DNA of 64,000 nucleotides from Tumebacillus algifaecis. GTDB taxonomy: Bacteria > Bacillota > Bacilli > Tumebacillales > Tumebacillaceae. The first letter of the stretch is position 1. Each line of letters opens with the position of its first letter. Position numbers and translations under genes: made by a program. Shown piece after piece: positions 9,587 to 56,806 of the stretch. The stretch is taken from positions 960,001-1,024,000 of the forward strand of contig NZ_CP022657.1 in the NCBI RefSeq assembly GCF_002243515.1. Reading direction: 5' to 3'. A model generated the notes under the pieces. The model was not told the origin of the DNA, did not search any database, and saw only the letters and a program-made list of their open reading frames with translations.

Positions 9587-11215
9587 TCAATGCTCGCGAG
9601 TGCGAAACTGCTCCTTGAGGTAGGCGGCCGTTCTTGCGGCCAACGCCATGACGGTGTTGGTCGGATTGCCACCGCCGGAGGTGACAAAAGCGGCGGCGGA
9701 ACAGATGTAGAGGTTGGGAATGTCGTGGGTTTGGCACCATTTGTTGACGACAGACGTGTCTGGATCGTCCCCCATGCGGCAACCGCCCATCAGGTGGGCT
9801 GAGTCGTTGACCACAAACTCAGGTCTGCCGCCTGCCGCTTTGATGATCTCTTTCATCATATACACCGCATGGTCGATCAACTTCAGATCGTTGTCGCCAT
9901 ATGAAAAAGTCACCTTGGGCACGGGCAGTCCATACTCATCCTTATGATCGGTCAACGTCACTCGGTTGTCCGCATGCGGCAACACTTCCCCGACCAGCGT
10001 CACCCGAGAGTAGTAGTTGTAGTCGATCATCGTTTCGCGCAACCGTCTGCCCCACAAGCCCGCCTGCACGGCCAAGCCTTTGCCCATCGAAACGGGACGT
10101 GCTCCGTGCGCATGCAAGGTGTAGCCGCGCATGAAGCCGCGATCCAAACGCGTCGCATACATCTCCTGTGTCGTGGCAAGCACGGGCGTACCTTTGTACA
10201 GGCGAACCTCGTCCTCGAATCTCCCATACACATCATGTGACGAGTGTGGCATGATGTAGCGTCCGACCGTCCCACTGGAGTTGGCCAGACCGTCCGGGTG
10301 GCTAGGGGTGGCAGAGGCCAACAGCAGCCGCGGAGTCTCGACGACAAAGGAGGACAGGATGATCACTTTGCCGCGCTGGCGGTACTCCACGCCGTCATGG
10401 TTGAAGATCACACTCTGCGCAATGCCTGTCTGATCCAACTCGATCTGCGTGACCATGCAATCGGTCAGGATCTCCGCCCCAGCTGAAATCGCTTTGGGTA
10501 TGTGGTGCACCAACCCCGAATACTTCGCATTCGGCATACAGCCTTGGTTGCAAAAGCCGCGATTGATACACGGCGGTCGCCCGTCAAACGGGGCGGAGTT
10601 GATCGCCAGCGGAGCGACCACGCTTTTGATCCCCAGCGCTTCACACCCGATGCGAAACAGTTCCGCATTGGCAGACAACGGCTCTCGCTCCGGCATCGGG
10701 TATGGTCCGCGAAATGGCCCCCACGGAAATTTTTTCGGCCCCGACACGCCGATCGAGCGCTCGATATAGTCATAGTACGGTGCCAAATCGGCATAGCGGA
10801 TCGGCCAATCCTCGCCGACCCCATCCTGTGTTTTCGTCACGAAGTCGCTTTCATGAAATCGTAAAAACACACCTGTAAAGTGTGTCGTGCCACCGCCGAC
10901 CCCGCGACCCGAGTTGTTATGCCCCATCTGAAGCGGGTCGTTGCCGCCGACGATGCGCGTGTCTTGCCAGCTTAGTCGCGCCATCGCCAGTTCGTCCGAG
11001 GCGAAGTCGGACTGCGGATTCCAAAACGGCCCCGCTTCCAGCACGACCACACGCAATCCGGTCAAACTCAGCTCATACGCCAATACGCCGCCAGCCGCCC
11101 CGGCGCCGACGATGACTACATCCGCTTCATCGGGGTATTTGCGGTGGTCGAGGTCATCGAAACGGTGCCCTTCGTAATGACAGACATTGTGATGGATCGG
11201 ATCGTGACTACGCAT
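9587..11215 (-). CDS. GMC-family FAD oxidoreductase (gluconate dehydrogenase-like large subunit)
   Basis: A 542-residue flavoprotein. The dinucleotide fold VVIVGAGAAGGVLAYELS begins near residue 33 and the second half carries SAHLMGGCRMGDDPDTSVV and the C-terminal GGNPTNTVMALAARTAAYL signature of the glucose-methanol-choline family. It resembles the flavin subunit of membrane-bound gluconate 2-dehydrogenase. The GTRC-like stretch CINRGFCNQGCMPNAK is cysteine-rich. It overlaps the upstream subunit 3-like gene by eight bases, so it is translated as part of a three-gene operon. It probably oxidises a sugar or sugar acid and feeds electrons to the membrane; the exact substrate is not shown. Confidence 0.88.
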   Translation of the reverse strand: MRSHDPIHHNVCHYEGHRFDDLDHRKYPDEADVVIVGAGAAGGVLAYELSLTGLRVVVLEAGPFWNPQSDFASDELAMARLSWQDTRIVGGNDPLQMGHNNSGRGVGGGTTHFTGVFLRFHESDFVTKTQDGVGEDWPIRYADLAPYYDYIERSIGVSGPKKFPWGPFRGPYPMPEREPLSANAELFRIGCEALGIKSVVAPLAINSAPFDGRPPCINRGFCNQGCMPNAKYSGLVHHIPKAISAGAEILTDCMVTQIELDQTGIAQSVIFNHDGVEYRQRGKVIILSSFVVETPRLLLASATPSHPDGLANSSGTVGRYIMPHSSHDVYGRFEDEVRLYKGTPVLATTQEMYATRLDRGFMRGYTLHAHGARPVSMGKGLAVQAGLWGRRLRETMIDYNYYSRVTLVGEVLPHADNRVTLTDHKDEYGLPVPKVTFSYGDNDLKLIDHAVYMMKEIIKAAGGRPEFVVNDSAHLMGGCRMGDDPDTSVVNKWCQTHDIPNLYICSAAAFVTSGGGNPTNTVMALAARTAAYLKEQFRTREH

Positions 11216-13339: not shown

Positions 13340-14548
13340 ATGAATTGGAACAAAAAAGCGGTAGGAGCAACTTTGGCACTTGGGTTGGCTGTATCGGTCA
13401 GCCTGCCCGCCTATGCGGGGTCTGCTACCTATGTGGAGCAGGGCCGAGTCGGTACTCCGATCAATCTGCTCGATGAGACGAAGGGGAAAATTGCCACAGC
13501 CAACGTTTTGGTAAAAGTGAAGTCGGGTAAGAAAGCCAGCAATATCGCTTTGAAGCATGGAGTGCGGCTCGGTGAACAGCTTGGCACAGGTGACTGGTAT
13601 GTCTTAGAAGTGCCGAGCGGACGACTCTCCCAAACGCTCGTCAAGCTCAAGCGGGACAAGGAGCTTGAAGCGGTGGAAGTGGACCAGCAAGTCGGCATCA
13701 CCGGGGAAGAACAGGCTGGCATCATGTTGACGCCGAACGACCCCGCTTTTTCAACTCAGCCCTATCTCAACCTGATTCAAGCCCCGGCAGCGTGGGATGT
13801 GACGACCGGCTCCTCCTCGCGCACGATCGCGATCATCGATACGGGTGTCGATCTTGATCATCCCGATCTGATCGGTAAAATTCTGCCGGGCTATGACTTT
13901 GTCAACGGTGATAGCATCGCGGACGATGATAACGGTCACGGCACAGCGGTCGCCGGAGTGGCCGCAGCCAGCTCCAACAACTTGACCGACATCACGGGTG
14001 TCGATTGGCAGGCCAAAATCTTGCCCGTCAAAGTGTTGAACGCAAGTGGAGCAGGCACTTATTCCAATGTCATCCAAGGTATCTATTACGCAGCCAATAA
14101 CGGGGCGAACGTGATCAACATGTCGTTCGGTGGTGGCGCCAGCGTATCGCTCCAAGATGCGATCAACTATGCGTACAGCAAAGGATGCATCATCGTCGCT
14201 GCGGATGATAGCTACGGGGGCACCGTCATGTATCCGGCCGCGTATGCCAACGTGGTCGGGGTCACCGGACTCAACGCGAGCGGTGTTCCGACAAGCGCGG
14301 GAAGTCACATCGACATCGCGGCTCCAGCCACTATGATCAGGACCACCCAGATGGGCGGAGGTACGGCGATTTACTCGGGTGTCTCTTACTCAGCGGCGAT
14401 CGTCTCCGGTGTGATGAGCCTCGCCTGGTCGTGCAACTTGTCCTATACGAATAGCGTTGTGCAAAACCGTGTGCTCACACAGGTTGACCCGATCCCAGGC
14501 AAGCCGTTTGGGCGTGTCAATGCCTATCAAACGGTCTTCGGATTCTAA
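13340..14548 (+). CDS. secreted subtilase-fold protein, oxyanion residue changed to Asp
   Basis: A 402-residue S8-family protein with signal peptide (about residues 1-26, ending AYA), an I9-like propeptide, and a catalytic domain from about residue 145. Asp167 (IIDTGVD), His200 (GHGTAVAG) and Ser349 can be aligned to the triad. The usual AAGNNG is AADDSYGG, which puts Asp290 where the oxyanion Asn should be, and the GTSMATP motif has become GVSYSAA. The related gene at 16074 keeps both motifs. Activity may be low, altered or lost; proprotein convertase PC2 is known to work with Asp at this place. RBS GGGAGG before ATG. Followed by a second divergent copy 43 bases on. Confidence 0.85.
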   Translation: MNWNKKAVGATLALGLAVSVSLPAYAGSATYVEQGRVGTPINLLDETKGKIATANVLVKVKSGKKASNIALKHGVRLGEQLGTGDWYVLEVPSGRLSQTLVKLKRDKELEAVEVDQQVGITGEEQAGIMLTPNDPAFSTQPYLNLIQAPAAWDVTTGSSSRTIAIIDTGVDLDHPDLIGKILPGYDFVNGDSIADDDNGHGTAVAGVAAASSNNLTDITGVDWQAKILPVKVLNASGAGTYSNVIQGIYYAANNGANVINMSFGGGASVSLQDAINYAYSKGCIIVAADDSYGGTVMYPAAYANVVGVTGLNASGVPTSAGSHIDIAAPATMIRTTQMGGGTAIYSGVSYSAAIVSGVMSLAWSCNLSYTNSVVQNRVLTQVDPIPGKPFGRVNAYQTVFGF

Positions 14549-14590
14549 ATGCTACACTGCATTGACAAACGACAAGGGAGGTCATATACG

Positions 14591-15754
14591 GTGAAAAGCG
14601 GGAACAGATGGGCAGGTTTTTTCCTCACGTTGGCGATGGTGACAGCGGTGGTGCCGGCAAGCGGTGCCTCTGCTGAGCAACCGAGCAAGGATCGAGCGGG
14701 GAATTCCTATGTGGAAGGCCAGATCCTCGTGAAAGTAAAACCGGGCAAGGATGCTGCTGTGCTTTCGAAAAAACTTGGCGCAAGCGAAGCGAAGTCGCTC
14801 GGCGGCGCGGAGTGGAAACTAGTGAAAGTGCCAATGGGGAAAACGGAAGAGTACCTTGCCAAATTCAAAGGGGACTCGGACGTGGCGGCAGCAGAACTTG
14901 ACTATATCTATACGGCACTTGCTACCACCCCGAACGACCCGCTCTATAGTAGCCAATGGCACTTGCCGAACATCGGCGCTGACGTGATGTGGGATACGAA
15001 CAGAGGCAGCGCTTCGAATGTGATCGCGATCATCGACACGGGGGTTGACCTCACCCATCCCGATCTGGTCGGCAAGATCGTACCAGGCTACAATTTTGTG
15101 GCCATGAATACGAATGCCAACGATGATCAGGGACACGGTACCTTCATGGCCACGCTCGCGGCTGCGAACACCAACAACGCGGTGCTTGGCGCAGGTGTGG
15201 ACTGGTATGCGAAAATCATGCCAGTCAAAGTGCTTGATGCTACGGGCGGCGGCACGACCTCGACGATCATCAGCGGCGTGCAGTGGGCAGCCGACAATGG
15301 CGCGAAGGTCATCAACATGTCGATCGGTGGTGGAAGCTACTCGACAGCGTTTCAAAATGTGATCGACTATGCGTGGAGCAAAGGCGTTGTGCTGACCGCA
15401 GCGGCGGGCAGTAGCGGCAGCACGTTGGCGCAATACCCAGCCGCTTACAACAATGTGGTAGCTGTGGCAGCGACCACATCTTCCGATTTGAAAGCATCCT
15501 TCAGCTCCTACGGCAGCTGGGTCGATTTTGCCGCACCTGGTTCGAGCATCGTATCGAGCAAGATGGGCGGCGGCTGGACTACCATGTCCGGTTCTTCGAC
15601 GTCCAGTGCGATCGTCGCTGGTGCTGTCACGCTGGCGTGGTCGAAGTATCCGACTTATACAAATGCAGGCATCATCAGTTATCTGGGCAGCCGAGCGACA
15701 CCGATAGCAGGCACTGGTACGTATTGGAACTACGGCAAGATCAATTTGCGTTAA
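14591..15754 (+). CDS. secreted subtilase-fold protein, oxyanion residue changed to Ser
   Basis: A 387-residue S8-family paralogue of its neighbours. Signal peptide at about residues 1-29 (ending GASA), propeptide with VEGQILVKVKPGKDA, catalytic domain from about residue 115. Triad residues Asp149, His182 and Ser336 align, but AAGNNG reads AAGSSG (Ser274 for the oxyanion Asn) and GTSMATP reads GSSTSSA. His is followed by GTFMATLA instead of GTHCAG. The start is GTG 14591 with AAGGGAGG upstream; the frame is open to 14549. No separate promoter or terminator lies between it and the previous gene, so both are probably one transcript. Confidence 0.85.
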   Translation: MKSGNRWAGFFLTLAMVTAVVPASGASAEQPSKDRAGNSYVEGQILVKVKPGKDAAVLSKKLGASEAKSLGGAEWKLVKVPMGKTEEYLAKFKGDSDVAAAELDYIYTALATTPNDPLYSSQWHLPNIGADVMWDTNRGSASNVIAIIDTGVDLTHPDLVGKIVPGYNFVAMNTNANDDQGHGTFMATLAAANTNNAVLGAGVDWYAKIMPVKVLDATGGGTTSTIISGVQWAADNGAKVINMSIGGGSYSTAFQNVIDYAWSKGVVLTAAAGSSGSTLAQYPAAYNNVVAVAATTSSDLKASFSSYGSWVDFAAPGSSIVSSKMGGGWTTMSGSSTSSAIVAGAVTLAWSKYPTYTNAGIISYLGSRATPIAGTGTYWNYGKINLR

Positions 15755-15769
15755 CAAGCAGGGTCGAGC

Positions 15770-15799
15770 AGAACACCTCTGATCAAGAGGTGTTCTTTT
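15770..15799 (+). terminator. Rho-independent terminator of subtilase pair
   Basis: AGAACACCTCT (15770-15780), five-base loop, AGAGGTGTTCT (15786-15796), then T residues. Confidence 0.88.
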
Positions 15800-15992
15800 C
15801 TTGTTTCCATAAGCGAATCATCATTTAGGAAAATAAATTTAAAACAAATTCAACGAACGAATATACAAATAAAAGGTTTGTTCCATTAGATAAGTAGAAA
15901 GTAAAATAATTAGAGATAACGAAAACGGCTGAAAATTGGCGAAACGATAAGAAAACAGGTTCAATGGTGGGTGTATTTGAATAATTCCTGAT

Positions 15993-16065
15993 TTGTATTA
16001 ATGAATTATAAGATATACAATATAGTCAGAAGGTGAAAAAACCTTCACAATATAAATAAAGGGGG
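15993..16065 (+). promoter_or_regulatory. promoter and 5' hairpin leader of subtilase gene
   Basis: The 270 bases before the third subtilase are strongly AT-rich and without a gene. TTGTAT at 15993-15998 and TACAAT at 16016-16021 are 17 bases apart and predict a start near 16028. The hairpin GAAGGT-GAAAAA-ACCTTC at 16029-16046 would then be the very 5' end of the mRNA. A 5'-terminal stem-loop stabilises the aprE mRNA of Bacillus subtilis, so a similar role is inferred. AAAGGGGG at 16058-16065 is the ribosome binding site. Confidence 0.5.
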
Positions 16066-16073
16066 CCATTAAA

Positions 16074-17264
16074 ATGGCGAAGTTCAACAAATTCGCAACT
16101 GCGTTCGTGGCAGTCGCAATGACCGCATCCCTGCTTCCGGTAGCAGGCGTTTCCGCAGCATCTGCGGACGTAAAACCGGCTGTAGTAGCAAACACCACCG
16201 GTACTGACCAACTCATCGTTACGTTCAAAGCTGGCAAAACAGACGTATCTGCGTCTGTAGCAAAAGCTCACGGCGCATCGGTGAAGAAAACCACCGCTAC
16301 TGGCAAGAAGATCCTGAAAGTTGATGCTGACAAAGCGGCTGACGTTCTCGCTCAACTGAAAGCTGACCCGAACGTTGAATCTGCAGAATTCGACCAAATC
16401 CTGTCGGTCGATGTAACTACGCCGAACGATCCGTCCTACGGCAGCCAATACCACTTGACTCGCATCCAAGCGAACTCCGCTTGGGACTTCTATACAGGTT
16501 CTACTGCAGTTAAAATCGCAATCGTTGACACCGGCGTTGACTTGACTCACCCGGACCTGTCTTCCAAAATCGTTGCTGGTTACAACTTCGTAAGCGGCAC
16601 TACGAACGCGAACGATGACCACGGCCACGGTACGCACTGCGCAGGTATCGCAGCTGCTAACACCAACAACTCCACGAACGGTGCAGGTGTTGACTGGAAC
16701 GCTCGTATCATGCCGGTTAAAGTTCTGAACGCAGCTGGTTCGGGCTACACTTCCGACATCTCCGCTGGCGTACGTTGGGCTGCTGACAACGGCGCGAAAG
16801 TAATCTCCATGTCCTTGGGCGGCGGCAGCTACTCCGCTAGCTTCCAAGCGGATATCGACTACGCATGGGGCAAAGGTGCTGTTATCGTAGCGGCTGCTGG
16901 TAACAACGGCAACACGGCTGTTCAATACCCGGCTAACTACAACAACGTTGTGTCCGTTGCTGCAACCACCAGCACTGACGGAAAAGCTTCCTTCTCCACC
17001 TACGGCACTTGGGTTGACATCGCTGCTCCGGGCAACGCGATCCTCTCCACTGCTAGAGGCGGCGGCATGACCACGATGTCCGGTACCTCGATGGCTACTC
17101 CGGTAGTTGCAGGTGTTGCAGGTCTGGTATGGCAGCGCTACGGCACTTCCGCTTCCCCGGCAACCATCGTTAACAAGATCCATTCGACTGCTGACGTGAT
17201 CACCGGCACCGGTTCCTGGTGGATCCATGGCCGCGTAAACGCATACAAAGCGGTTACTCTGTAA
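16074..17264 (+). CDS. secreted subtilisin-family serine protease (thermitase-like)
   Basis: A 396-residue extracellular endopeptidase with all canonical S8 features. Signal peptide about residues 1-29 (ending VSAA), I9-type propeptide with LIVTFKAGKTDVSASV, then catalytic domain with Asp152 (IVDTGVD), His185 (HGHGTHCAG), oxyanion Asn277 (AAAGNNG) and Ser339 (SGTSMATP). Codon use is narrower than in its neighbours, rich in GCT, GTT, AAC and CGT, as in highly expressed genes. It has its own promoter, leader hairpin, strong RBS and terminator. It is the likely active enzyme of the cluster, secreted for protein degradation. Confidence 0.95.
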   Translation: MAKFNKFATAFVAVAMTASLLPVAGVSAASADVKPAVVANTTGTDQLIVTFKAGKTDVSASVAKAHGASVKKTTATGKKILKVDADKAADVLAQLKADPNVESAEFDQILSVDVTTPNDPSYGSQYHLTRIQANSAWDFYTGSTAVKIAIVDTGVDLTHPDLSSKIVAGYNFVSGTTNANDDHGHGTHCAGIAAANTNNSTNGAGVDWNARIMPVKVLNAAGSGYTSDISAGVRWAADNGAKVISMSLGGGSYSASFQADIDYAWGKGAVIVAAAGNNGNTAVQYPANYNNVVSVAATTSTDGKASFSTYGTWVDIAAPGNAILSTARGGGMTTMSGTSMATPVVAGVAGLVWQRYGTSASPATIVNKIHSTADVITGTGSWWIHGRVNAYKAVTL

Positions 17265-51190: not shown

Positions 51191-52711
51191 GTGAGCAAAG
51201 GGCAAACGGTTCAAGGCAGCAAGGGCAAGAGCGAACGGAATCAGCAGGATGGACGTAGGAAGCAGGGCACGAGTGCGGGCGGTGCGTCGTCGGGCGGCGG
51301 GAAGCGCGGTGGAGTACAGGCGCGGGACGATCGCGCGGGGTCGAACATCAAACTGCGTGTGGGGCAGGTCGTTGAGATTGACGTGAAGCGCATGGGGATC
51401 AATGGCGAAGGTATCGGCTATGCGGAGCGCCAAGTGATCTTTGTGCCCGGCGTGCTGCCAGGGGAACAGGTCGTGGCAGAAGTGGTGAAGGTTGAGCAAC
51501 GACATGCGATCGGCAAGTTGGTGCGGGTGAAGCAGAAGAGCAAGGATCGTGTGGAGCCGCCCTGTGCGGTTTATGACCAGTGTGGCGGCTGTACGTTGCA
51601 ACATTTGAGCTACGACGCGCAATTGGAAATGAAGCGCGAGTTGGTGCGCGAGAGTTTGTCCCGATATGCTGGGCTGAAAAAACCGCCTGTCGAGCCGACT
51701 GTGGGCATGCAAAACCCGTGGAGCTATCGGAATAAAGCGCAACTGCCGATCGTCGAGCACAAAGGCGATGTGGTGGTCGGGCTGTTTCAGGCAGGCTCCC
51801 ACCAGATCGTCGATGTGAGCGGATGTGCGGTGCAGCATCCGATGACCAATCGAATCGTGCAGGAAGTCAGAGATATCGCGAAAGAGTTGGGCATTTCGCT
51901 GTATCAGGAAAAAGTACATAAAGGCGAACTGCGCACCGTGGTAGCGCGTGTTGGATTTGAAACGGGACAATGTCAGTTGACGCTGGTGACACGAACAAGA
52001 GAATTGTCGCAGAAAAAAGAGTTGGTGAAACGAATTGTCGAGCGAGTGCCGGAGATCACGTCGATCATGCAAAATGTCAATCCGGCCAAGACGTCGCTGA
52101 TTTTTGGGGAGGAGACCCTTCCATTGTGGGGGACGGAGGATCTCTTGGAGCGCTTAGGCGAGGTCCAGTTCTCGCTGTCGCCGCGAGCCTTTTTCCAATT
52201 GAATCCGGAGCAGACACCGAAGTTGTATGACCTCGTAGCCGAGGCGGCCGCACTGACTGGGAACGAAGTCGTGGTCGATGCCTACTGTGGTGTCGGCACC
52301 ATCGGCCTCTGGCTAGCTCCAAAGGCCAAAGAAGTCCACGGGATGGACATCGTGCCAGAAGCGATCGCCGATGCGAAGCGGAACGCCAAGATGTCCGGTG
52401 TGGATAACGCCCGATTTGTGGTAGGAGCAGCGGAGAAGATTTTGGTCGAGTGGATGCAAAAAGGCCTGCGCCCCGATGTGGTCGTGGTCGATCCACCGCG
52501 AACAGGCCTGCATCAGGACTTGATCGAGGCCTTGTTGAAAACTGCGCCCAAGCGGATCGTCTACGTTTCCTGCAATCCATCCACATTGGGGAAAGATTGT
52601 GGGCAACTGTTGAAGAAATATGAGGTAAAGAAAGTGACCCCTGTGGATATGTTCCCGCAGACGGCGCATGTGGAGAGTGTCACACTACTCGTGCGAAAAG
52701 TTACTTCCTAG
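51191..52711 (+). CDS. 23S rRNA (uracil-5)-methyltransferase, RlmCD/RlmD-like
   Basis: A 506-residue SAM-dependent RNA m5U methyltransferase. Residues 1-52 are a basic, low-complexity Gly/Ser/Lys tail not usual for the family. Then a TRAM domain (VGQVVEIDVKRMGINGEGIG), iron-sulfur Cys residues CAVYDQCGGC, SAM motif VVDAYCGVGTIGLWLAP, PDVVVVDPPRTGLH and catalytic Cys in IVYVSCNPSTLGKD. GTG 51191 with GGAGGAGG upstream. Last gene of the recQ cluster; its 3' end is duplicated downstream. Confidence 0.88.
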   Translation: MSKGQTVQGSKGKSERNQQDGRRKQGTSAGGASSGGGKRGGVQARDDRAGSNIKLRVGQVVEIDVKRMGINGEGIGYAERQVIFVPGVLPGEQVVAEVVKVEQRHAIGKLVRVKQKSKDRVEPPCAVYDQCGGCTLQHLSYDAQLEMKRELVRESLSRYAGLKKPPVEPTVGMQNPWSYRNKAQLPIVEHKGDVVVGLFQAGSHQIVDVSGCAVQHPMTNRIVQEVRDIAKELGISLYQEKVHKGELRTVVARVGFETGQCQLTLVTRTRELSQKKELVKRIVERVPEITSIMQNVNPAKTSLIFGEETLPLWGTEDLLERLGEVQFSLSPRAFFQLNPEQTPKLYDLVAEAAALTGNEVVVDAYCGVGTIGLWLAPKAKEVHGMDIVPEAIADAKRNAKMSGVDNARFVVGAAEKILVEWMQKGLRPDVVVVDPPRTGLHQDLIEALLKTAPKRIVYVSCNPSTLGKDCGQLLKKYEVKKVTPVDMFPQTAHVESVTLLVRKVTS

Positions 52712-52726
52712 ATGTAGTCTTATAGG

Positions 52727-52757
52727 AAAAGCGCCTACAAGAAAAGGCGCTTTTTTA
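52727..52757 (+). terminator. Rho-independent terminator of rlmCD-like gene
   Basis: AAAAGCGCCT-ACAAGAA-AGGCGCTTTT followed by TT. Confidence 0.9.
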
Positions 52758-52870
52758 TCTACAATCATATCGATGAAACGAGTGCTTCAGCCTCGATGTA
52801 AAATCATAAGCGACATAAGTATCCTCAATGCACACCTTACTATATAATCCGTATTTAATTTTGCTAGAAA

Positions 52871-52894
52871 TTCACTGGTGAAATATGATACAAT
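52871..52894 (+). promoter_or_regulatory. promoter and inverted repeat of precursor gene 1
   Basis: TTCAC-TG-GTGAA (52871-52882) is followed by an extended -10 box TGATACAAT (52886-52894), with no good -35. The block is unchanged in the second unit although the surroundings have diverged, which suggests a regulated, activator- or repressor-dependent promoter. Confidence 0.55.
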
Positions 52895-52956
52895 AATATC
52901 ACTAACTGAGACATACATCCTAGGTCAATTCCAATTCTGAAGGGAGGTAGTTTCCC

Positions 52957-53088
52957 ATGGAAAAATTTTTTGATCTCGATGTGCAAGTGAATTCGGTCGC
53001 TCCGTCTGCTAATGTAAGTCCTGAGGTTTGGTCGGGCGGGTGCTTCAGATCGATCTTCGTCAGTGATTGCATCGAAGACCAGATGTAA
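52957..53088 (+). CDS. RiPP precursor candidate 1, lanthipeptide-like
   Basis: A 43-residue peptide with a strong RBS (AAGGGAGGTAG) seven bases before ATG. Residues 5-11 read FDLDVQV, the F(N/D)LD box of class I lantibiotic leaders such as subtilin and gallidermin. A Ser-Pro-Glu at 21-23 sits where the Pro-Gln or Pro-Arg protease site of those leaders lies. The proposed core has WSGGCFRSIFVSDC, giving Ser-x-x-Cys and Ser-x5-Cys pairs that could form lanthionine rings, and ends IEDQM. Its paralogue at 53735 keeps these positions. No LanB/LanC, transporter or immunity gene is visible nearby, so modification is inferred. Confidence 0.6.
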   Translation: MEKFFDLDVQVNSVAPSANVSPEVWSGGCFRSIFVSDCIEDQM

Positions 53089-53099
53089 GAAAAACCCTG

Positions 53100-53130
53100 C
53101 CATCACTTGTTCCCAACGGGTGATGGTTTT
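53100..53130 (+). terminator. terminator of precursor gene 1
   Basis: CCATCAC (53100-53106) pairs with GTGATGG (53120-53126), followed by four T. Confidence 0.8.
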
Positions 53131-53336
53131 ATATTTATATGGAAATTGGAGATTGGAAGCTACGCGGAAAAGGCGCGGTTGATGCTGTAGTACGATCGTC
53201 CGGCAGTAGGGAAGGTGTATTGGGTGTGGGTATTCTTTAGAGAAGACGCACTATTTTGAAAATTAATATCGAAGAGATAAAAGACTTGCAAAAAAGGATA
53301 TGATTTATCGGATTACTATAATCATTGTGGATGAAT

Positions 53337-53386
53337 CCTTATACGAAGTGTACTGGGGACTGAGGGGATGTAAGAGAGTTCTATGA
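53337..53386 (+). pseudogene. short broken frame downstream of precursor 1
   Basis: GTG 53337 opens a 16-codon frame containing DESLYEVYWGLRGC and ends at TGA 53384-53386. The same start is found in unit 2, where a longer continuation in another frame exists (54104-54353). Here the continuation is replaced by the duplicated rlmCD-like tail, in frame with VREFYERDLLRYLFE. Likely a remnant. Confidence 0.4.
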
Positions 53387-53504
53387 GAGAGATTTGTTGC
53401 GGTACCTTTTTGAGCTGAGTATGAATTGGCAACGGCATATCACACATGTGGAGAGTGTGATGCTGCTGGTGCGAAAAGTTACTTCCTAGATGTAGTCTTA
53501 TAGG

Positions 53505-53535
53505 AAAAGCGTCTACATGAAAAGGCGCTTTTTTA
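53505..53535 (+). terminator. duplicated terminator of rlmCD-like tail
   Basis: AAAAGCGTCT (53505-53514) pairs with AGGCGCTTTT (53522-53531), one wobble; copy of the one at 52727. Confidence 0.8.
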
Positions 53536-53648
53536 TCTGCAACCATATCAAGGAAACGAGTGATTCAGCTTCGATGTAAAAATGATAACGACATAAGTAC
53601 CATCAATGAGAAACTTATTATATAACTCAGATTTAATTTCTCTAGAAA

Positions 53649-53672
53649 TTCACTGGTGAAATATGATACAAT
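53649..53672 (+). promoter_or_regulatory. promoter and inverted repeat of precursor gene 2
   Basis: Same TTCAC-TG-GTGAA repeat and extended -10 TGATACAAT as before the first precursor gene, 778 bases further on. Confidence 0.55.
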
Positions 53673-53734
53673 AAAATTACTATCTGAGACATACATCCTA
53701 GGTCAAATCCAATTCTGAAGGGAGGTAGTTTCCC

Positions 53735-53866
53735 ATGGAAAAATTTTTTGATCTCGATGTGCAAGTGATTTCGGTCACTCCGGCTGCTAAGGTAAGTCCT
53801 GAGGAATGGACGAGCCAGTGCTTCAGATCGATCTTAATCAAAGACTGCATCGAAGACTCGATGTAA
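53735..53866 (+). CDS. RiPP precursor candidate 2, lanthipeptide-like
   Basis: A 43-residue paralogue of the precursor at 52957. The first 11 residues, MEKFFDLDVQV, are identical; the spacer differs (ISVTPAAK against NSVAPSAN); Ser-Pro-Glu is kept at 21-23. The proposed core has WTSQCFRSILIKDC and ends IEDSM. Both Cys residues, the Trp, Phe-Arg-Ser-Ile and the acidic end are conserved while ring residues vary, as in two-gene peptide families. RBS and promoter block match copy 1. Alternative: a small regulatory peptide whose leader resembles FDLD by chance. Confidence 0.6.
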   Translation: MEKFFDLDVQVISVTPAAKVSPEEWTSQCFRSILIKDCIEDSM

Positions 53867-53877
53867 GGATAACCCTG

Positions 53878-53908
53878 CCATCACTTGTTCCCAACGGGTG
53901 ATGGTTTT
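53878..53908 (+). terminator. terminator of precursor gene 2
   Basis: CCATCAC (53878-53884) pairs with GTGATGG (53898-53904), followed by four T. Confidence 0.8.
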
Positions 53909-54103
53909 GTATTTTTATAGAAATTGGAGATTGGCAGCTATGTGGAAGAGGCGCGATTGATACAGCCGCACGATCGTCTGGCTGTAGGGAAGGTGTATCG
54001 GGTGTGGGTATTCTTTAGAGAAATTGCACTATTTTGAATACTAACAGCAAAGAGAATAAAGACTTGCAATAAAAGGTATGATATATCAGTTTACTATATC
54101 TTC

Positions 54104-54353
54104 ATGGATGAATTCCTCAACGAAGTATACTGGGCACTGAGGGGATGTAAGAGAGTTCTATGATAGATTTGATGCGGTAAAGTGGTTCGCGAATGAAAAA
54201 GACCGTCATCGAGGTGTTTACTTGGATATTCGAGCAAGAAAGAAATATGGTCATCGTTGGTATTTTCGTGGACAAAGAATCGAAGCACTAGGCTTCCATC
54301 AAGCCATGACTAGTTTAGAAGAAATCATGTGCGACGTATCGGACGTTGCATGA
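54104..54353 (+). pseudogene. small gene downstream of precursor 2, frameshifted
   Basis: ATG 54104 opens DEFLNEVYWALRG and stops at 54163. The next frame is open through VREFYDRFDAVKWFANEK, RGVYLDIRARKKYGHRW, FRGQRIEALGFHQAMTSL to TGA 54351-54353. One extra G in the run at 54141-54144 would join them into about 83 residues. The same G run is found in unit 1. I do not recognise the protein; a link to the precursor peptide is only positional. The 334 bases from 54354 to 54687 hold no gene, only an AGCATTT/AAATGCT inverted repeat near 54460. Confidence 0.5.
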
Positions 54354-55607: not shown

Positions 55608-55925
55608 TTGGAAAAGACAGCGCGGAAACGAAAAACGTATTCACGAGAATTCAAGTTCATTGCGGTAAAGATGTATTTGGAAAAAGGAATGGGTTATAAA
55701 TCGGTCGCAAGTGAGCTGCAGATCCCCGACCACAGCATGGTAAGGAAGTGGGTCAAAAACTACAAAACGCTTGGGGCGGAGGGCTTAGAGGAACGCAGAG
55801 GAAAGACGAGAACACCGTTCACTGGTCGTCCGAGAACGAAAAAGCTTACGCTCGAACAAGAAGTGCAAAAGTTGAGAGCGGAGAACGACTTTTTAAAAAA
55901 GCTGTTGCTTTTGCAAAGGAGGTGA
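55608..55925 (+). CDS. IS3-family transposase OrfA
   Basis: A 105-residue DNA-binding protein with HTH (SREFKFIAVKMYLEKGMGYK and SVASELQIPDHSMVRKWVKN) and a C-terminal leucine-zipper-like helix (LEQEVQKLRAENDFLKKLL). Start TTG 55608 with AAGGGGG upstream. The slippery sequence A-AAA-AAG at 55895-55901 lies near its end, so a -1 shift would fuse it to OrfB, as known for the family. Confidence 0.88.
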   Translation: MEKTARKRKTYSREFKFIAVKMYLEKGMGYKSVASELQIPDHSMVRKWVKNYKTLGAEGLEERRGKTRTPFTGRPRTKKLTLEQEVQKLRAENDFLKKLLLLQRR

Positions 55926-56806
55926 GAGGTAAAGCGAAGATTCGTCAGTGCTACCAAGTCATCCAAGATCTTACTGGCAGCTATTCAACGTCACTGTTGT
56001 GTGAAACCGCAGGAGTATCACGGAGTGGGTATTACAAATGGGTTCAACGTCGACAAATGATTACATCCAAACAAAAGGAGGAGCGGCAGCTCAAAAAACT
56101 TATTTTGCAATGTCATAAAGCAGTCCGAGGAACCTACGGTTACTATCGTGTTCGTGCTTGGCTACGTCGAAAACACAATCTCAAGATCAATCACAAACGT
56201 GTGTACCGGCTTATGAAAGAACTAGGTATCCAGTGCGTTGCAAGGAAGAAGAAACGCTGGTTTGGCAAGAAATCAGAGAATTATACAGCACCAAACTCAT
56301 TGAACCGAAACTTTAAGGCCTCGCGGCCAAATGAAAAATGGGCGACAGATATCACCTACCTGCTTTTCAATGGACAGAGGCTATTTCTGTCGGTCATCTA
56401 CGACATGTTTAACAACGAAATTGTCGCCTACCGCATCGGAGAGCGGAACGATCTTAAACTGGTTCTTGATACCGTCAAGCTCGCCAATAAAAAAAGAGAT
56501 GTGACCGACACCCTTCTTCACAGTGATCAGGGGTTCCAGTACACATCTCACCAATATAACAAGTTGCTTCAAACATACAACATAGCGCAGAGTATGTCCA
56601 GAAAAGGAAACTGCTTGGATAATGCTTGCGTAGAGAACTTCTTTGGTCATCTGAAGTCGGAACTCATGTATCTCAACAAGTTTCGCACCAAGGCAGAGGT
56701 GATGAACGCTGTGGCTAGCTACATTCGATTTTACAACCAGCAAAGAATACAACGGAAATTAAGTGACCTGAGCCCAGTAGAATACCGAACTCAGGTCTGT
56801 GCCTAA
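55921..56806 (+). CDS. IS3-family transposase OrfB (DDE integrase)
   Basis: The frame opens upstream at 55748 but is translated mainly as the OrfAB fusion after -1 shifting; a GTG at 55921 is the possible independent start. The HTH_21-like part (YGYYRVRAWLRRKHNLKINH) precedes the rve domain with DDE residues: Asp in WATDITYLLF, Asp in LLHSDQGFQYTS and Glu in DNACVENFFGHLKSEL. It catalyses transposition through a circular intermediate in known relatives. No internal stop is seen, so it may be active. Confidence 0.88.

Follow-up and report, generated by a model that had tools for sequence, protein, structure and literature searches.

A 64,000-nucleotide stretch of the Tumebacillus algifaecis genome (positions 960,001 to 1,024,000 of NZ_CP022657.1; hereafter the window) carries two short genes in tandem whose products are probably class I lanthipeptide precursors that lack a local gene cluster, being two of about 21 precursors with an FDLD-containing leader in this genome that would be modified by a distant LanB and LanC. 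A first-pass annotation had described the pair as lanthipeptide-like precursors whose enzymes would act from elsewhere. This description is supported by the family scores of both peptides and by two findings whose absence the annotation had counted among its refuting conditions: a lanB-lanT-lanC set in the same genome and homologues beside lanB in related genomes.

The precursor pair and its family

Both genes are 43-codon open reading frames with a ribosome site, as first predicted, and in each GGGAGG precedes the start codon (Table 1). Over the first 11 codons the two genes do not differ at a single base; beyond codon 11, 12 codons differ by amino acid-changing substitutions and one by a silent substitution. 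The leader had been called identical, which was overstated: residues 1–11 and S21-P22-E23 are common to both peptides, but the leader-like part diverges at residues 12, 15, 17 and 19. The conserved Trp, two Cys, Phe-Arg-Ser-Ile and acidic end that had been noted are present in both peptides as W25, C29, C38, F30-R-S-I33 and I39-E-D41. Both also have Ser or Thr at position 26 and Ser at position 32, in agreement with the reported Ser/Thr upstream of the first Cys and Ser six residues before the second, and the resulting S/T26-C29 and S32-C38 spacings are suited to thioether rings, as looked for in a class I precursor.

When searched against precursor models for ribosomally synthesized and post-translationally modified peptides (RiPPs), peptides 1 and 2 scored 21.8 and 21.4 bits against NF038155 (NCBIfam, FDLD family class I lanthipeptide), both over the curated cut-off of 20. 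This model describes a short leader domain and is silent on the core, and the window genes have no enzyme gene nearby. Since both peptides exceed the cut-off and none of 14 control genomes has a match over it (6 of the 14 have a match at E ≤ 10), the pair stands beyond chance. In the window's own genome, G000 (4,516,965 bases, one contig), the model matched 25 times at E ≤ 10, and 10 of these matches exceed the cut-off. Neither peptide matched Pfam at E ≤ 10. There is weak similarity along the peptides to the elgicin/penisin family (NF033457; E 2e-5 and 9.7e-5), and membership in this lantibiotic family was rejected at 24.5 and 22.3 bits versus a cut-off of 40. A search of plasmid records with precursor 1 gave 110 matching records at E ≤ 10; those listed, 20 in number, had E values of 4 or 7, fell in an alpha/beta hydrolase and were judged to be chance matches.

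Homologues with enzymes nearby, which the first-pass annotation had left to be sought in other genomes, occur in sister species, where peptides of similar layout adjoin lanB in G003, G004 and G006. These lookalikes are the most direct link of the pair to class I enzymes. Orthologues that carry both W(S/T)xxCFxSI and another Cys occur as a pair in G002 and singly in T. avium (G001), to whose genus group G000 belongs. By alignment, S/T26, C29, S32 and C38 are kept in five of five window-type peptides of the genus group. In each of the six genomes that have LanB, precursors with an FDLD leader are found beside a class I lanB.

Class I and other enzymes of the genome

The proposed genome-wide search for LanB and LanC found two PF04738 matches and one PF05147 match in G000, the latter, a stand-alone LanC, being the sole LANC_like match. 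One operon, lanB-lanT-lanC (L029), encodes the single class I LanB at full length (PF04738 and PF14028; G000:C1, ~1.495 Mb), an ABC exporter and LanC, so that both enzymes are present in the same genome as the precursors. The LanB aligns with NisB over residues 63–1045. For the LanC, alignments were obtained with NisC and with a closer LanC-like protein of solved structure; its WCYG and CHG motifs we take to hold the zinc ligands. One clear FDLD precursor adjoins the operon in divergent orientation. A thioesterase gene and a penicillin-amidase-like gene (L029 13482–16751, + strand) follow the precursor beside lanB; near the G001 cluster similar translation starts are found for the two, and near the G002 cluster for the thioesterase.

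Leader-guided modification by these distant enzymes is the best-supported mechanism. Each peptide would be produced from its own small gene, whereupon the distant LanB would bind the FDLDVQV leader and dehydrate Ser and Thr residues of the core, and the neighbouring LanC would close two thioether rings, most simply S/T26-C29 and S32-C38. LanT would then export the product, and the leader would be removed by a protease encoded outside the operon. We infer these steps and any biological role of the peptides; the sequences themselves show the genes, the leader family, a single class I LanB and a single LanC, and a conservation pattern that recurs in sister genomes. The genome has six PF00082 matches, each of which might remove leaders; three of these six Peptidase_S8 matches cluster at window positions ~13823–17192, and any could be a candidate leader protease.

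The second PF04738 protein of G000 looks to be of the thiopeptide type, as its neighbours are a SagD-type protein, which scores over its cut-off, and a pyridine-synthase-like protein, whose 265.7 bits fall short of the 325 required. The first-pass annotation had allowed that the pair might belong to another RiPP class, and such enzymes would be possible partners were the peptides substrates of another RiPP system. The cluster in question (L031; G000:C1:2642001–2660000) has its own short Ser/Cys-rich precursor at 10711–10896, but this differs in leader from the window pair and has a Cys/Ser-dense core, whereas the FDLD leader matches class I models and is found beside class I lanB in all six LanB genomes, as described above. 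We therefore give this alternative almost no weight, and owing to its thiopeptide-type neighbours the second PF04738 protein was set aside as a partner of the pair.

Dispersed precursors and what weighs for and against a shared enzyme set

Further FDLD-leader peptides, also suggested as a follow-up, were sought using a script that required F[DE]LD near the start, a ribosome site and a length of 28–75 residues, with Cys not required. It returned 86 precursors: 22 from five stretches of G000 and 64 from sixteen stretches of relatives, 21 stretches in all. With one G002 precursor added that has a weak ribosome site, there were 85 unique sequences. A profile, A2, was built from 50 of these and matches were counted at E ≤ 1e-4. 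The window peptides match it at E 1.5e-14 and 7.7e-14, and the counts were 21 in G000, 10 in G001, 20 in G002, 21 in G003, 21 in G004, 0 in G005 and 13 in G006. The 21 matches of G000 lie in four loci, one match within 15 kb of LanB and the other 20 remote. Of all 106 matches, some of them in frames interrupted by a stop within the matched part, 38 have a full-length LanB no more than 15 kb away; for the other 68 there is none in that range, with the qualification that three relatives of G000 are in many contigs and a contig end could hide a nearby LanB. One G000 copy (1793226–1793327; L027 7100–7480), inside an array, is a decayed FDLD precursor with an in-frame TAA, while the match at 3731836 merely overruns the end of an intact frame.

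The set is distributed as follows. In a class-wide search of 398 genomes, with at most 19 candidates scored per genome and hence no proof of absence elsewhere, six matched at E ≤ 1e-5, all in this family. Order-wide, none of seven genomes outside the family matched at E ≤ 1e-4, and when named genomes were scanned, all six loci returned were from Tumebacillus (T. avium, T. permanentifrigoris and T. flagellatus). The script found no FDLD precursor near three further LanB genes, L068, L069 (G002) and L070 (G001); the looser profile gave a weak match near two of the three (G002:C2:590552, E 7.8e-4; G001:C1:655633, E 0.0029). Two WFDLDLQ-leader peptides (L030 8368–8502 and 9002–9154) lie next to a gene that encodes adenylation, carrier and reductase domains.

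The number of precursors, 21 matches in four loci, points to a prochlorosin-like combinatorial layout. The first-pass annotation had named a combinatorial or a two-peptide system; the former is favoured by these counts, and the latter found no specific support. As a two-peptide lantibiotic, peptides 1 and 2 would be complementary halves acting jointly, which would fit the tandem pair in the window and the pair in G002. The halves of two-peptide lantibiotics usually differ in ring layout, however, and here the ring positions and most motifs are common to both cores; T. avium, moreover, has one peptide of this type. We consider a two-peptide system very unlikely.

Purifying selection acts on the leaders, and much less on the rest of the peptide. 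The ratio of changing to silent differences per site (pN/pS) in the leader was 0.05 among the five window-type genes (15 silent differences over 54 sites and 4 changing ones over 276, from pairs that are not independent), 0.06 for neighbours of array L027 and 0.13 for array L028 versus T. avium; L028 versus the G002 array gave 0 silent and 3 changing differences, so that the ratio is undefined. For the rest of the peptide, the same four comparisons gave 1.03, 0.87, 0.75 and 1.03, the last value owing much to a single dissimilar pair, which accounts for 17.2 of the 29.2 changing differences. Duplication, followed by residue change outside the ring positions, would yield such a set of differing cores. 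Since some G000–G002 orthologous cores are nearly unchanged, and one peptide is identical, fast change is not true of every core. With 1.5 silent differences in 20.3 sites and 15.5 changing ones in 75.7, the window pair alone shows too few for any claim of diversifying selection. Among the 85 unique precursors, cores are 8.6% Cys with at least one Cys in each, and leaders have 0 Cys in 944 residues. Ser or Thr lies 2–6 residues before 198 of 207 core Cys, versus 137.2 in shuffles (standard deviation 6.6; 0 of 2000).

Several points weigh against modification of the pair by the distant enzymes. Because the sequences are related, both the Cys test and the selection counts overstate the evidence. 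LanB and precursors occur in the same six of seven family genomes and the seventh, G005, lacks both, but this co-occurrence rests on few cases, a single genome being without LanB. No cluster gene lies within the window region, as had been noted for the neighbourhood of the pair; the nearest LanB or LanC gene is ~478 kb away (477,619 bases from precursor 2 to the lan operon), and the adjacency of LanB/LanC to the precursor that is usual, if not strictly defining, for class I is thus absent. The G000 LanB is only 44–46% identical to the LanBs of G003, G004 and G006 that lie beside similar peptides, the second peptide beside lanB (L029 13119–13253) is a weak match (profile E 0.0057), and no dedicated leader protease was seen in the lan operon.

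The distance from LanB would also be expected if the pair were relics, that is, duplicated precursor genes cut off from their cluster that have lost expression and modification, and the in-frame stop in the G000 copy at 1793226 indicates that some copies do decay. In the window, however, both frames, ribosome sites and terminators are intact, and the 11-codon leader start is base-identical despite 12–18% divergence of the flanks. The excess of silent over changing differences in the leaders of the five window-type genes argues in the same direction, and we regard decay of the pair as unlikely. We retain, as very probable, the reading in which the two genes encode substrates of the distant LanB and LanC.

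The window locus and comparison with known systems

The proposed tandem duplication was confirmed: the precursor genes lie inside a direct repeat with a spacing of 778 nt, which is 88% identical over 300 nt and 86.7% over 739 aligned positions. Between genes 1 and 2, flank divergence is 12.4% upstream and 16–18% downstream. Each gene had been credited with its own promoter block and terminator. The terminators stand, since the same hairpin follows each gene, but the claim was overstated for the promoter blocks, which are consensus matches only. The region contains 8 promoter-like matches on both strands versus 4.7 expected (shuffled mean; standard deviation 1.9), and as this count is not far above the shuffled mean, the promoter-like sites are weak evidence.

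Table 1. Features of the precursor locus, in window coordinates
Feature	Position	Strand	Description
Precursor gene 1	52957..53088	+	43 aa; predicted FDLD-leader class I lanthipeptide precursor; core ...VWSGGCFRSIFVSDCIEDQM
Precursor gene 2	53735..53866	+	43 aa; leader start as in gene 1; core ...EWTSQCFRSILIKDCIEDSM
Repeat unit 1	52667..53444	+	starts with last 45 bases of rlmD-like gene (52667–52711)
Repeat unit 2	53445..54179	+	86.7% to unit 1 over 739 aligned positions; starts with rlmD 3' tail copy (53445–53489)
Terminator-like hairpin after gene 1	53099..53127	+	13 pairs, T-rich tail; -16.9 kcal/mol, z -4.15
Terminator-like hairpin after gene 2	53877..53905	+	same 13-pair hairpin, T-rich tail; -17.8 kcal/mol, z -3.54
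Promoter-like site before gene 1	52865..52894	+	TAGAAA, 18, TACAAT, TG before second hexamer; consensus match only
Promoter-like site before gene 2	53643..53672	+	position matches gene 1 site; consensus match only

The window locus lies downstream of an rlmD-like gene. The G002 pair lies 4.8 kb downstream of rlmD, and no rlmD tail copy was seen before it. In T. avium the precursor is ~16 kb downstream of rlmD with a serine recombinase gene between them, and a copy of the rlmD 3' tail stands immediately before the precursor unit (L056, around 10219), adjoining the serine recombinase gene. Because tail copies occur both in unit 2 of the window and beside the recombinase in T. avium, the rlmD 3' end looks like an attachment site. 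That the precursor cassette itself moved via this site is speculation, and plain tandem duplication would explain the window equally well. An IS3-like pair of overlapping frames, encoding transposase HTH and rve integrase domains, lies at window positions 55608–56803, ~1.7 kb from precursor 2, and a different transposase adjoins the array in L028 (8064–9467).

The nearest precedent is a class I cluster of T. flagellatus that has 10 precursors, described in a search which, in the accessible part of that paper, is limited to seven genes from LanC (Walker et al. 2020; PMC7268733). That cluster and the present system share the genus, class I enzymes and a multitude of precursors. In T. flagellatus GST4 (G004), we found 13 profile matches within 15 kb of LanB and 8 more farther away; in contrast to the seven-gene range of the earlier search, these 8, and 20 of the 21 in the window's genome, lie beyond 15 kb. 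One-enzyme, many-precursor lanthipeptide systems have been described mainly for class II enzymes of cyanobacteria, to judge from the portion available (PMC12328550). The prochlorosins (ProcM/ProcA) of cyanobacteria resemble the present system, as far as the accessible text goes, in that there is one enzyme set and a large number of precursors whose leaders are alike and whose cores vary, many of them encoded remotely (PMC12328550, PMC7268733). The precursor features are found here, the class II LanM is not: prochlorosins are class II, while here the enzymes are a class I LanB and LanC, and the sole LANC_like match of G000 is the stand-alone LanC. Searches of the open-licence literature turned up no account of remote class I precursors for Tumebacillus, nor was a like system seen in the accessible parts of Clostridium and Bacillales mining papers.

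The best reading is that the pair belongs to a class I counterpart of the prochlorosin system, in which one LanBC would serve many dispersed precursors. For Tumebacillus more broadly, we consider it an evenly balanced proposition that a substrate-tolerant LanB-LanC-LanT processes ~10–21 precursors per genome, many far off in dispersed arrays, with cassettes arising by duplication and, at the window locus, perhaps seeded via the attachment-like site at the rlmD 3' end used by serine-recombinase elements. If this is true, peptide engineering would gain, from a class I system whose precursors are dispersed, a LanB/LanC pair that is tolerant by nature. With their short, nearly constant leader and differing cores, the natural substrates would allow a direct test of the limits of LanB and LanC. 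Genome mining confined to gene clusters would, in turn, miss many precursors, as 68 of the 106 matches lie more than 15 kb from a full-length LanB.
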